In this document: positions 6,434-10,090 of the stretch, piece after piece
How the letters are laid out: every line of letters begins with the position of its first letter
Numbering within the stretch: the stretch's first letter is position 1
DNA from: an uncultured Duganella sp.
GTDB lineage: Bacteria > Pseudomonadota > Gammaproteobacteria > Burkholderiales > Burkholderiaceae
NCBI GenBank assembly: GCA_946482335.1
Contig: CAMLRG010000177.1
Location: forward strand, 1-11,187
Length of the DNA stretch: 11,187 nt
Direction: 5' to 3'
Program-made: the position numbers and the translations under genes
The notes under the pieces: generated by a model
What the model saw: only the letters and a program-made list of their open reading frames with translations
The model's database searches: none
Told to the model about the DNA's origin: nothing

Positions 6434-7672
6434 TCAGGTAACGGCGCCGCGTGCGGCAGTGATGTCGTAGGCTTGATCGTCCAGGATCTGTTTCAGGATG
6501 TCCACCGCATCCCACACGTCGGCAAAGCTGGTGTACAGCGGCGTGAAGCCGAAGCGCATGATTTCCGGCTCGCGGTAATCGCCGATCACGCCGCGCGCGA
6601 TCAGGGCTTGCATGACGGCGTAGCCGTGCGGGTGGGTGAAGCTGACTTGCGAGCCGCGCCGGGCGTGCTCGCGCGGGGTTACCAGGCCCAGCGGATGGGC
6701 GGCGCAGCGTTGCTCCACCAGGGCGATGAACAGGTCGGTCAGGGCCAGCGACTTGGCGCGCACCACGTCCATGCCGGTTTGCGCGAACACGTCGAGGCCG
6801 CATTCCACCATGGCCAGGGAGGCGATCGGCTGGGTGCCGCACAGGGCGCGGCCGATGCCCTGGCACGGCGCGAAGTCGGGCGCCATGGCGAACGGGGTGG
6901 CATGGCCCCACCAGCCGGACAGGGGATGGCGGAACTTGCCCTGGTTGCGTGCGGGCACCCAGATGAAGGCGGGCGCGCCGGGGCCGCCGTTCAGGTATTT
7001 ATAGGTGCAGCCGACGGCATAGTCGGCGCCGTCGCCATGCAGGTCGAGCGGCACCGCGCCCACCGAATGGCACAAGTCCCACACCACGAGCGCGCCATGC
7101 TGGTGGGCCAGGGCGCTGGTGGCCGCCATGTCGTGCTGGTAGCCGGTGCGGTAATTGACGTGGGTCAGCATCAGCACGGCGGTGTCGGCGTCGACCGCGG
7201 CCGGCAACTGTTCGGGACTGTCGACCAGCCGCACTTCATAGCCGCGGTCCAGCCAGGAGGTCAGGCCCTGGGCCATATAAATATCGGTCGGGAAGTTCGA
7301 ACGTTCGGTGACGATCACTTTGCGGCCGGTGTGGGCTTGCGCGTGCAGGGCGGCGGCCAGGGCTTTGAACAGGTTGACCGAGGTGGTGTCGGTCACGACC
7401 ACTTCGCCCGCCTTGGCGCCCACCATCGGGGCCAGCTTGTCGCCCAGGCGCTTGGGCATGTCGAACCAGCCGGCGCTGTTCCAGCTGGTGATCAAGTCTT
7501 TGCCCCATTCTTTGGCGATGACTTCGGTGGCGCGGGTGAGGGCGGCTTTGGGGCGGGCGCCCAGCGAGTTGCCGTCCAGGTAAATGACGCCGGCGGGCAG
7601 GTCGAATTGCTCGCGCAGCGGCGCCAGGACGTCCACGGCGTCGTGCGCCAGGCAGTCTTGTCGGGAAATCAT
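6434..7672 (-). CDS. kynU: Kynureninase
   Basis: This PLP enzyme splits L-kynurenine into anthranilate and L-alanine, the third step of tryptophan degradation. The 412-residue length is typical. Visible motifs are YLDGNSLG (31-38), the region around TDTTSVN (94-100) that holds the PLP phosphate, RSNFPTD (124-130), [15 protein letters not shown] (198-212) with D199 and H202 near the pyridine ring, and [11 protein letters not shown] with the Schiff-base lysine K225. The ATG at 7672 is chosen since the family N-terminus begins there and AAGGA lies about ten bases upstream. An upstream extension to 7900 reads through the palindromic repeat and is rejected. It is the first gene of the kynU-kynA-RNase T2 operon and has an extended -10 promoter nearby. 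Anthranilate may feed tryptophan resynthesis, catabolism or quinolone-type products. Confidence 0.97.
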
Positions 7673-7706
7673 GCTGGTGTTTTCCTTGAAGCTTAAAGAA
7701 AGTGAG

Positions 7707-7715
7707 ATTGTAGCA
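7707..7715 (-). promoter_or_regulatory. Extended -10 promoter of the kynU operon
   Basis: On the minus strand TGCTACAAT is an extended -10 element (TGN-TACAAT, five of six consensus bases). It would start transcription near 7700, about 28 bases before the kynU ATG. The -35 region (around 7729-7735) is poor and coincides with the end of the palindromic repeat element. Confidence 0.5.
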
Positions 7716-7728
7716 ACCTTTGGTGCCC

Positions 7729-7847
7729 CAAAACCGGTAAGTCCGCCGGATGGCCGTCCCGTCTGACCCGCAGGGTCCGACACCGGTTCGCGACCGCCGC
7801 CGACCAGTGTCTGACCCTGCGGGTCAGACACTGGTGTGCCGGTTTTG
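7729..7847. repeat. Palindromic intergenic repeat element, copy 1
   Basis: The element is bounded by a 9-bp inverted repeat, CAAAACCGG (7729-7737) and CCGGTTTTG (7839-7847). Inside are two stem-loops of one family. GTCTGACCC/GGGTCCGAC (7761-7781) has one mismatch. CCAGTGTCTGACCC/GGGTCAGACACTGG (7804-7834) has perfect 14-bp arms around TGC. A second copy in the opposite orientation lies at 9204-9318; the shared core reads GACGGGACGGCCATCCG on the minus strand here and GACGGGGCGGCCATCCG there. No transposase or clear target duplication is seen. It could be a REP-like or non-autonomous element. Confidence 0.8.
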
Positions 7848-7907
7848 CTGGCCAAGCCATTGATTTTAAAAGAACAAAAAATTTTCAAATTTTTTTCCAA
7901 AAAACCC

Positions 7908-7934
7908 TAAAGTTCCGCGCAGCCGCGCCGTTAC
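7908..7934 (+). promoter_or_regulatory. Sigma-28 (FliA) type promoter 1 upstream of flhD
   Basis: TAAAGTTC (7908-7915), 11 bases, then GCCGTTAC (7927-7934) match the FliA consensus TAAAGTTT-N11-GCCGATAA at 13 of 16 positions with the exact spacer. An A/T-tract region precedes it. Transcription would start near 7941, about 380 bases before flhD. Confidence 0.7.
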
Positions 7935-8016
7935 CCTTTCCAGAAGCCCGGTAAAAGGCTTGCTGTTCGGCAGTTTGGAGGGGTGCAAGAAAATTTAAAA
8001 TTTTTTGCGAAAACCC

Positions 8017-8043
8017 TAAAGTTCCTCAAAACCCTGCCGTTAC
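8017..8043 (+). promoter_or_regulatory. Sigma-28 (FliA) type promoter 2 upstream of flhD
   Basis: TAAAGTTC (8017-8024), 11 bases, then GCCGTTAC (8036-8043) give the same boxes as promoter 1, shifted by exactly 109 bases, with a different spacer sequence. The upstream A/T tract and AAAACCC are also repeated, so the unit is duplicated. The start would be near 8050, about 270 bases before flhD. Confidence 0.7.
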
Positions 8044-8050
8044 CAGTTCA

Positions 8051-8087
8051 GATGTCGCAAAAAAGCATCTCAGCGATATCGCATTTT
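8051..8087 (+). terminator. Terminator-like hairpin in the flhD leader
   Basis: GATGTCGC (8051-8058) can pair with GCGATATC (8073-8080) as an 8-bp stem with one G-U pair, followed by GCATTTTT. It lies just downstream of both sigma-28 boxes. It could end a short RNA from promoter 1 or act as an attenuator. The loop is long (14 bases) and the T tract short. GCGATATCGC (8073-8082) is also a perfect palindrome and could be a protein site instead. Confidence 0.35.
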
Positions 8088-8174
8088 TACCCTCGGCTCC
8101 TGAGTTTTCGGCGAGTCCGAACACCCCGCAAACCCGCGCCAATGCTGGCGTTGCCCCTCTATGGGCAGCCCTTT

Positions 8175-8191
8175 GTAGGACAAAATCCTAC
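8175..8191 (+). promoter_or_regulatory. GTAGGA-N5-TCCTAC inverted repeat upstream of flhD
   Basis: GTAGGA (8175-8180), CAAAA, TCCTAC (8186-8191) form a perfect 6-bp inverted repeat 132 bases before the flhD start. The form TAGGA-AAAA-TCCTA resembles the RcsB box of the E. coli flhDC promoter and the TTTCCTA heptads of BvgA, which represses the flhDC homologue of Bordetella. It is a likely operator for a NarL/LuxR-type response regulator, by inference only. Confidence 0.45.
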
Positions 8192-8277
8192 GGGGTCACT
8201 TCGCCTATTCCCGACCCAAAATACAGAGTGTGGCCTCTTTGCGCTTTGTACCGTCTCCAGCAGAATGTATCTCAACG

Positions 8278-8297
8278 GCAACGAATATTTGCGTTGC
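8278..8297 (+). promoter_or_regulatory. Leader hairpin before the flhD ribosome binding site
   Basis: GCAACG (8278-8283) and CGTTGC (8292-8297) form a perfect 6-bp stem with an 8-base loop, ending 14 bases before the AGGAG of flhD. ACAGGAG at the ribosome binding site also resembles a CsrA-type GGA site. A post-transcriptional role is possible but unproven. Confidence 0.3.
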
Positions 8298-8322
8298 AAG
8301 CAGATACCGACAGGAGATGGAC

Positions 8323-8640
8323 ATGACCGCAAACGACATGATGGCTGAAATCCGCGACGCGAACCTGAGCTACCTGATGCTCGCTCAGCAAATGATCCGC
8401 GCCGACAAGGTCACGGCAATCTTTCGCCTGGGCATTTCGGCCGACATCGCCGACCTGATCGAAGGCATGAGCAATGCCCAGATCCTGAAACTGGCAGGCG
8501 GCAACATGATGCTGGCCCGCTTCCGCTTCGACGACAGCGCCATCCTCGGCATGTTGACCAACTACAATAAGGACCGTTCCCTGGCCCAGTCCCACGCCGC
8601 CATCCTGATGGCCGGCCAGGCTGTCGAAGAAATCGCTTAA
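8323..8640 (+). CDS. flhD: Flagellar transcriptional regulator FlhD
   Basis: FlhD joins FlhC in a FlhD4C2 complex that activates class II flagellar promoters with sigma-70. The 105-residue protein has the family core EIRDANLSYLMLAQQMIRADK (9-29), AIFRLGIS (32-39) and LARFRFDD (64-71). The cysteine that forms the inter-subunit disulfide in E. coli (C65) is alanine here. The start is the ATG at 8323, since AGGAG (8312-8316) lies six bases upstream; an in-frame ATG at 8317 sits directly against that AGGAG and is less likely. The gene stops 10 bases before flhC. It is preceded by a long leader with two FliA-type promoters and a possible response-regulator operator, so expression is probably controlled at several levels. 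Confidence 0.95.
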   Translation: MTANDMMAEIRDANLSYLMLAQQMIRADKVTAIFRLGISADIADLIEGMSNAQILKLAGGNMMLARFRFDDSAILGMLTNYNKDRSLAQSHAAILMAGQAVEEIA

Positions 8641-8650
8641 GGAGCGCGCC

Positions 8651-9199
8651 ATGAGCAAGAAGAGTGTGGTGACCGAGGCGCAGGAGATCCAGTTGGCCAT
8701 CGAGCTGATCAACCTGGGCGCCCGCCTGCAATTGCTGGAAACCGAGGTGTCGCTGTCGCGCGAGCGCTTGCTCAAGCTGTACAAGGAACTCAAGGGCGTG
8801 TCGCCGCCGAAGGGCATGCTGCCTTTCTCGACCGACTGGTTCCTGACCTGGCAGCCGAATATCCACTCGTCGCTGTTCATGAATATCCATAATTTCCTGG
8901 TCGAGCACGCGGGCGCGACCGGCATCCGTGCGGTGATGAAGGCTTACCAGCTGTACCTGGAACAGATGCCGCCGGCTCCTGGCGAGGAGGCGCTGCTGTC
9001 GCTGACCCGCGCCTGGACCCTGGTCAAGTTCGCGGGCAGCGGCATGCTGCAGCTGAAGGCGTGTACTTGCTGCAAGGGTAAGTACGTGGTCGATGCCATG
9101 GACTTGAACCGCGATTACAAGTGCGGCTTGTGCCATATGCCTTCGCGGGCGGGGAAGACGCGCAAGGCTAAGGATGCTGCTGAGGCTGTGGCTGCTTGA
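8651..9199 (+). CDS. flhC: Flagellar transcriptional activator FlhC
   Basis: FlhC is the DNA-contacting partner of FlhD in the flagellar master complex. The 182-residue length is usual for beta- and gammaproteobacteria. The N-terminal helices carry EIQLAIELINLGARLQLLE (12-30), followed by LLKLYKELKGVSPPKGMLPFS (40-60). The C-terminal zinc site is intact, with C138, C140 and C141 in ACTCCKGKYV and C158 and C161 in YKCGLC. The AAGGAG that overlaps the flhD stop codon lies six bases before the ATG, so the pair is translated as one operon. The C-terminal tail after residue 165 is lysine- and alanine-rich and low in complexity. A palindromic repeat starts only five bases after the stop codon and could end or stabilise the message. 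Confidence 0.96.
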   Translation: MSKKSVVTEAQEIQLAIELINLGARLQLLETEVSLSRERLLKLYKELKGVSPPKGMLPFSTDWFLTWQPNIHSSLFMNIHNFLVEHAGATGIRAVMKAYQLYLEQMPPAPGEEALLSLTRAWTLVKFAGSGMLQLKACTCCKGKYVVDAMDLNRDYKCGLCHMPSRAGKTRKAKDAAEAVAA

Positions 9200-9203
9200 T
9201 CTT

Positions 9204-9318
9204 GGTGTCAGGCCCTTGGGTCTGACGGGGCGGCCATCCGACCGGTTTGCGGGTTTGTGGCCGCGATGCTGCGGGCCTGAACCGGTAAACCGGTGTCAGA
9301 CCCCTAGGGTCAGACGCC
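9204..9318. repeat. Palindromic intergenic repeat element, copy 2
   Basis: The element begins just after flhC. It has GTCAGGCCC/GGGTCTGAC (9207-9226), then GGGGCGGCCATCCGACCGGTTT shared with copy 1 in reverse. Next come ACCGGTTT (9241-9248) facing AAACCGGT (9287-9294), and finally a stem GGTGTCAGACCC-CTA-GGGTCAGACGCC (about 9292-9318). Neither stem is followed by a T run, so a factor-independent terminator is not supported. Copies 1 and 2 bracket flhDC in opposite orientations. Confidence 0.75.
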
Positions 9319-9337: not shown

Positions 9338-10090
9338 ATGAATTTTAGAGTTCCGGCTATTCAGGCGCTGCTGGTCCAGGCGGGAGCGCTGCTGCCTTGC
9401 GCGGCGCTGGCGGTGGCGGCCGATGCCGTCGGCGCCGGCTTGACGCTGCTGCAGGCGGCGCTGCTGCAAGGCTTGCTGGCCGCCGCCCTCAGCTGGAAGC
9501 TGGGCCTGGCGCGCTGGTGGTTGCCAATCCAGTTATTCTTCCCGCTTGCGCTGCTGGCCGGCCTGGCACTGCACTTGCCGCCGTGGCTGGCCGGGGTGGC
9601 TTTCCTCATCCTGCTGGGCTGGTACTGGTCCACTTACCGGACCCAGGTCCCTTACTATCCTTCCAATCCCGCCGTGTGGCGTGCCGTGCTGGCCGAACTG
9701 CCGCAGGGCGGGGCGCTGCGCATGATCGATATCGGCAGCGGGCTGGGCGGCTTCACGCTGCACCTGGCGGCGGCCAGGCCGGAGTCGGACGTGGCGGGCA
9801 TCGAGCTGGCGCCGCTGCCCTGGCTGGTGTCGCGCCTGCGTGCCAGCCTGAGCGGCAGCCGCGCCCGTTTCCTGCGCGGCGACTACGAACGGCTGAATTT
9901 TGCAGAATACGACCTGGTGTTTGCCTACCTGTCGCCGGCGGCCATGCCGGCCTTGTGGCGCAAAGCCCAGCGTGAAATGCGGCCCGGAAGTTTGCTTGCT
10001 AGTTACGAATTTGAGATTCCAGCAACGTCCGGCGTCAAGACCATCCATACCACAGAGAGCGGTCCGCTCCTCTATATAAGAGCGTTTTAG
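9338..10090 (+). CDS. Membrane-anchored class I SAM-dependent methyltransferase
   Basis: This is a 250-residue protein. Residues 8-98 are strongly hydrophobic and hold three or four membrane helices (about 8-30, 36-53, 62-80, 84-98). The rest is a cytosolic Rossmann methyltransferase domain. Motif I is MIDIGSGLGGF (129-139), binding SAM through D131 and the glycines. GIELAPLPW (154-162) carries the acidic residue (E156) that holds the ribose, and FLRGDYERLNF follows with a motif-II-like position. The substrate is unknown; lipid, quinone or membrane-protein methylation would suit the topology. The ATG at 9338 is the only well-placed start and has no clear ribosome binding site. The gene lies between flhC and motA, where it is not a classical flagellar gene, and it directly follows a repeat element, so it may be an insertion into the locus. 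Confidence 0.8.
   Translation: MNFRVPAIQALLVQAGALLPCAALAVAADAVGAGLTLLQAALLQGLLAAALSWKLGLARWWLPIQLFFPLALLAGLALHLPPWLAGVAFLILLGWYWSTYRTQVPYYPSNPAVWRAVLAELPQGGALRMIDIGSGLGGFTLHLAAARPESDVAGIELAPLPWLVSRLRASLSGSRARFLRGDYERLNFAEYDLVFAYLSPAAMPALWRKAQREMRPGSLLASYEFEIPATSGVKTIHTTESGPLLYIRAF

Follow-up and report, generated by a model that had tools for sequence, protein, structure and literature searches.

Predicted tandem FliA (sigma-28) promoters ahead of the flagellar master operon flhDC in an uncultured Duganella sp. and their conservation in related Burkholderiales

The flhDC locus and its two upstream boxes

The stretch of DNA analysed here (the window) comprises 11,187 nucleotides from an uncultured Duganella sp. 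and carries the flagellar master operon on its forward strand, with flhD at 8323..8640 and flhC at 8651..9199, whose identities, as proposed in an initial annotation of the sequence, are confirmed by the curated NCBIfam models FlhD (158 bits, cut-off 90) and FlhC (281.4 bits, cut-off 216). Between these genes and a divergent kynureninase gene lie two 27-base elements that read towards flhD on the forward strand, i.e. box 1 (P1, 7908..7934) and box 2 (P2, 8017..8043); each matches TAAAGTTC-N11-GCCGTTAC exactly and is, by its sequence, a sigma-28-type promoter. The initial annotation had described two identical boxes lying 109 bases apart from start to start on the flhD strand, separated internally by 11-base spacers that differ, and each preceded by an A/T tract and AAAACCC, and the sequence bears out every one of these points. 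The A/T element ahead of box 1 occupies 7876..7907 together with AAAAAACCC, and that ahead of box 2 occupies 7987..8016 together with AAAACCC, both on the forward strand; their sequence and the column profile given below make them UP-element-like.

With as many as three mismatches tolerated and both strands scanned, nothing else in the window matches, and the pair also emerges from a repeat search that was given no pattern (49 bases, 76% identity, spacing 109). None of 200 dinucleotide shuffles contained two matches, and on this result, together with the forward-strand bias seen in the relatives and in the order-wide sample (see below), a chance repeat was rejected. P1 and P2 are oriented into flhDC with no annotatable gene in between. 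Simple scans of positions 7650-8400 returned neither a terminator-like nor a sigma-70-like site, which says little because shuffles yield on average merely 1.1 and 0.4 such sites, respectively.

Conservation in close relatives

A search with FlhC found 434 relatives, of which the best 80 were kept, so the resulting sample of 81 upstream regions (the window plus 80) is biased to close relatives. The nearest FlhC relatives among these best 80 of 434 are labelled Pseudoduganella and Duganella (96-97%), and the set as a whole is mostly labelled Massilia, Pseudoduganella, Duganella, Telluria, Rugamonas or Janthinobacterium, mostly Oxalobacteraceae. When a degenerate form of the pattern was searched on both strands of the 80 loci and the window, 168 of the 169 matches fell at most 750 bases upstream of flhD and on its strand. 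Scoring sites at 13/16 or better against TAAAGTTY-N11-GCCGWTAM, in as much as 700 bases of sequence ahead of flhD, gave 196 boxes on the flhD strand of the 81 regions and none on the opposite strand. Two boxes were found at 49 loci, three at 27 and four at 4, and the one locus with a single box (L037) has just 292 bases of upstream sequence. The spacings between neighbouring boxes cluster at 73-79 (49 of 115), 84-87 (19) and 107-111 bases (25). In Janthinobacterium and some Massilia the array is kept with weaker boxes, e.g. TCAAG.

Conservation in close relatives had been named beforehand as a check on the boxes, and its outcome is strongly positive, 80 of the 81 regions having two to four of them; the suggestion that the boxes are under selection is thereby well supported. 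The further suggestion that a flagellin-type promoter had been moved to this place has become less likely, as the window boxes score 16/16 against 13 to 15 for the fliC boxes of eight relatives. A recent local duplication, like a moved flagellin promoter, is also disfavoured by the occurrence of the arrangement throughout the sampled relatives and in more distant genomes.

An A/T element upstream of the boxes

The columns around 195 of the 196 boxes, from the window and its relatives, were profiled, the L037 box being dropped for too little flank. The trinucleotide CCC directly precedes the box (95-99% per column over positions -3 to -1, counted from the box), and the A/T share of each column is 85-99% in the stretch from -21 to -12 and 72-87% in that from -31 to -23. 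While conservation within the box partly reflects the criterion by which boxes were picked, the flank, i.e. CCC and the A/T element, played no role in the picking. Across the 195 boxes the A/T-rich subsites thus profiled sit at a constant position just ahead of the -35 box, which, relative to the expected start, we take to be the location of an UP element, with reference to the UP-element consensus. In its sequence, then, the A/T element with CCC looks like an UP element.

The boxes ahead of fliT in three genomes carry the A/T and CCC element as well, and the flgM and flgK boxes are without it. These fliT cases (L190, L195 and L198) each concern a stand-alone fliT-like gene preceded by the same composite of A/T, CCC and box as flhD. 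In the available text on Salmonella, FliT inhibits FlhDC (PMC4173784, PMC5809477), and it is conceivable that a positive input is paired here with a negative one.

Evidence for FliA-type promoters

The enteric sigma-28 consensus consists of TAAAGTTT and GCCGATAA, 11 bases apart. The window boxes match it at 7/8 and 6/8 bases, and the label 'sigma-28 box' given in the initial annotation therefore leans more on the boxes ahead of flgM and flgK in the relatives, which uphold it, than on the enteric consensus, which is matched incompletely. In the whole genomes of five relatives, TAAAGTTYN11GCCGNWAM had 13 exact matches and the reversed pattern none. Among six relatives' genomes the exact matches number 16, with 12 at flhD (two per genome), 3 before flgM and 1 before flgK, so that all four matches away from flhD precede flgM or flgK. 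Pfam FlgM supports two of the three FlgM proteins, and the FlgK piece shows a rod-protein domain match only. With one mismatch allowed, the same six genomes gave 51 pattern matches against 57 for the reversed control, i.e. no enrichment, and the genome-wide evidence is for this reason restricted to exact matches. Fourteen of the 35 one-mismatch loci were read, and 8 of them lie before flagellar genes, namely fliC twice, flgM, a flgK-like gene (L197, named by eye, with no Pfam match), fliT three times and a YjfB-like gene; the other 6 do not.

The fliC gene is preceded by a tandem box pair (score 13 to 15, 84-88 bases apart) in all eight genomes searched, and no site of at least 13 was found at the other flagellin-domain loci (L102-L123). 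A scan of E. coli K-12, used as a yardstick, recovered the motA/MotR box at 14/16. From that box to the annotated 5' end of MotR there are 33 bases, and the same offset puts the predicted starts of the window at 7941 and 8050, in agreement with the positions near which the initial annotation had placed them. That these are FliA-type promoters under selection is well supported by sequence comparison, the same 16 bases standing before flgM and flgK in relatives; the boxes of P1 and P2 are presumably recognized by FliA.

Distribution among more distant genomes

Beyond the close relatives we sampled 200 genomes of the order, 72 of which gave an FlhD match (76 hits), and examined 63 upstream regions after omitting the 13 weakest. 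A site scoring at least 14/16 was found on the flhD strand in 16 of the 63 regions, on the reverse strand in 1, and in none during 20 rounds of shuffling; at 13/16 the figures are 18 forward against 4 reverse. The A/T element is present in 12 of the 16 strong-box regions and absent in L136, L137, L160 and L181. Among these 12, L132 and L002 are the same genome and L130 groups with Massilia rows, and the remaining ten encode an FlhD 54-85% identical to the best-matching query.

A tree of FlhD, based on few columns and including 9 of the 81 family rows (the window and 8 others), places the window in a supported set of 23 rows, 19 of which have boxes; L145, L154, L165 and L181 fall outside this set. 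In the labels of the tree L137 and L160, which are without the A/T element, are marked 'weak', and L136 and L181, likewise without it, are kept in the box group. From the boxes in the more distant genomes together with the FlhD tree, it follows that the box arrangement is probably older than the sampled close relatives. At the same time, most of the other genomes of the order with an FlhD do not have it, 47 of the 63 regions having no strong box, and a loop built on it is therefore not general.

The leader between P2 and flhD

The stretch described in the initial annotation leaves out about 270 bases between box 2 and flhD, a predicted leader (8050..8322, forward strand) that has conserved blocks too. 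After 6 of the 81 leaders had been left out, 30 of the remaining 75 were aligned, and the alignment shows as conserved blocks a palindrome TTTGTAGGACAAA, AAAATAC and CAGAATGTATCTCA. The palindrome lies at 8172-8184 in the window, some 150 bases before flhD. A loose pattern for it occurs in 75 of the 81 regions, and the stricter GTTTGTNAGACAAAC is found once per genome in four of eight genomes, at the coordinates of the flhD locus. We take the palindrome to fit a GntR/FadR-type TNGTNNNACNA operator; it would alternatively fit an RNA hairpin.

A conserved RNA structure was considered for the leader and set aside, as the consensus fold is weak (10 pairs, -1.47 kcal/mol), and we claim no riboswitch for this reason. 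No Rfam family reached its gathering score. The three matches below gathering are all to microRNA models on the opposite strand at 7749-7845, over a palindromic repeat (see below), and a known RNA family was rejected as well.

FliA genes and their surroundings in relatives

FliA and the class III boxes are known here from the relatives' genomes only. Each of eight such genomes (G001-G008) encodes two FliA_WhiG proteins over cut-off; in seven of the eight, the exception being G006, the first of them is encoded on the same contig as a fliC or flgM that has a box. In the 10.2-11.1 kb upstream of fliA, read in its direction, none of the eight genomes has a box of at least 13, and FliA-type input thus appears at flhDC and not at fliA. 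The region covered around fliA in two Massilia genomes is without any box, even at flgM. In two genomes whose neighbouring frames were named by eye, flhA-, flhF- and flhG-like frames stand before fliA and motor-protein-like frames after it, and no FliZ-like frame was seen beside it.

Several flagellins occur alongside the two FliA_WhiG proteins in all eight genomes, which suggests that these relatives have a second flagellar system, served by a sigma factor of its own.

Discussion

We consider that the sequence evidence is best read as conserved tandem FliA promoters that drive flhDC in a direct positive feedback, and assign to this reading a probability of roughly 0.7. Positions 7876-8043 would hold two tandem promoters for the FliA (sigma-28) RNA polymerase, each boosted by its UP-like A/T element. 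Upon completion of the hook-basal body FlgM would be exported and FliA freed, and the freed FliA would transcribe flhDC from P1 and P2, with a leader about 270 to 380 bases long. In enterics the transcription of fliA depends on FlhDC, which is assumed for these bacteria too; a direct loop from FliA to FlhDC to fliA would then keep the flagellar programme on in cells with a finished flagellum. The sequences show the boxes, their conservation and strand bias, the identical boxes before flgM and flgK in relatives and the fixed register of the A/T element; recognition by FliA, transcription with readthrough into flhD, the need of fliA for FlhDC in this group and the outcome for the cell are inferred. 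Several observations speak against the reading, namely the lack of enrichment over the reversed control at one mismatch, the 6 of 14 one-mismatch loci that are not before flagellar genes, the two Massilia regions around fliA that show no box, the count of 18 forward against 4 reverse at 13/16 in the order-wide sample, and the 47 of 63 order-wide regions in which a strong box is missing.

A broader proposal goes with this reading and is put forward tentatively, at somewhat less than even odds. The positive loop, which in enterics is placed at fliA and runs via FliZ, may in this Burkholderiales branch have moved up to the top of the hierarchy, where FliA, freed on completion of a hook-basal body, would drive flhDC from two to four UP-strengthened promoters; motility would then be self-sustaining and gated by FlgM export, the copy number of the promoters setting the strength.

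The same observations could be read in other ways. Where a genome is G+C-rich, silencers typically act at long A/T tracts, and one might take the tracts here for sites of an H-NS-like silencer, or the boxes for elements that make polymerase interfere with a housekeeping promoter, in which case FliA would restrain flhDC or most of the boxes' activity would be silent. A housekeeping promoter must exist, yet the simple scan did not locate one, which leaves some room for this reading; the fixed register of the A/T element at the position of an UP element fits a contact with the polymerase better, and the element also stands ahead of the fliT boxes in three genomes, and we regard silencing or interference as very improbable. 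It is hardly to be expected, either, that recognition of the boxes falls to the second FliA, sitting with the second flagellin set, which would link the second flagellar system to flhDC and close no loop. A candidate protein is available in the pair of FliA_WhiG proteins of all eight genomes, but the fliC, flgM and flgK boxes belong to the set of the first FliA, whose contig carries a boxed fliC or flgM in seven of them, and the lack of sites at the other flagellin-domain loci also speaks against the second FliA.

A further reading accepts the boxes as FliA promoters and lets their main product be an RNA, either a leader or a small RNA, whose end or processing site lies ahead of flhD, or else a long, poorly translated leader, with an effect that would be post-transcriptional and possibly negative. 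The conserved blocks and the palindrome between P2 and flhD would suit such an RNA, and a sigma-28 transcript of fliA in Salmonella is inefficiently translated according to the available text of PMC4173784. The missing terminator-like site, of small weight given how few sites shuffles yield, the weak fold of the leader and the absence of an Rfam family at gathering score point the other way, and we hold this reading to be unlikely.

Read as FliA promoters that feed back on flhDC, the boxes invite comparison with the class III sigma-28 promoters of enterics, i.e. those of fliC, flgM, flgK and motA. They are of the same kind, two boxes with 11 bases between, and the relatives carry them before flgM, flgK and, in weaker form, fliC. 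They differ in standing ahead of the master operon, in tandem and with an A/T element that is missing at those flgM and flgK boxes that were read. The window also departs from an enteric-type flhDC promoter, which is without sigma-28 boxes: it has two, as against none in E. coli K-12, where no site of at least 13 was found before flhD on its strand. A sigma-28 promoter does occur at the flhDC locus of E. coli, the motA/MotR promoter inside flhC, but its annotated direction is away from flhDC and leads into motA and the small RNA MotR. Work by Kutsukake in 1997 reportedly dealt with autogenous control of the Salmonella flhD operon and described an influence of FliA on its transcription; that operon is said to have no tandem sigma-28 boxes, in which it differs from the window.

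In the text available for Salmonella, positive feedback by FliA runs through FliZ and YdiV (PMC4173784). There, as in the loop proposed here, FlgM gates the activity of FliA, and this activity increases expression that depends on FlhDC, but the Salmonella loop is indirect, whereas FliA-type promoters here stand directly before flhDC. In PMC3946378, flhDC is described as having the promoters P1 and P5 and as being controlled by RflM and HilD. Among the open-access matches listed in our literature search, most subscription papers being outside its scope, none described sigma-28 promoters ahead of flhDC in these bacteria. In the textbook account of the flagellar cascade the late sigma factor is subordinate to the master operon. 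If true, a conserved link running straight from the late to the master level would mean that the same parts are wired differently, and from it one would expect motility to show commitment or bistability, with assembly as the gate.

Other features of the window

Between flhC and motA the window contains a frame at 9338-10090 whose weak methyltransferase-like matches are far below the curated cut-offs. The flhDC region is flanked by palindromic repeats on GTCTGACCC / GGGTCAGAC, at 7761-7835 and at about 9208-9318. Similar palindromic repeats were seen by eye upstream of flhD in some close relatives, and the repeats resemble dispersed REP-type elements.
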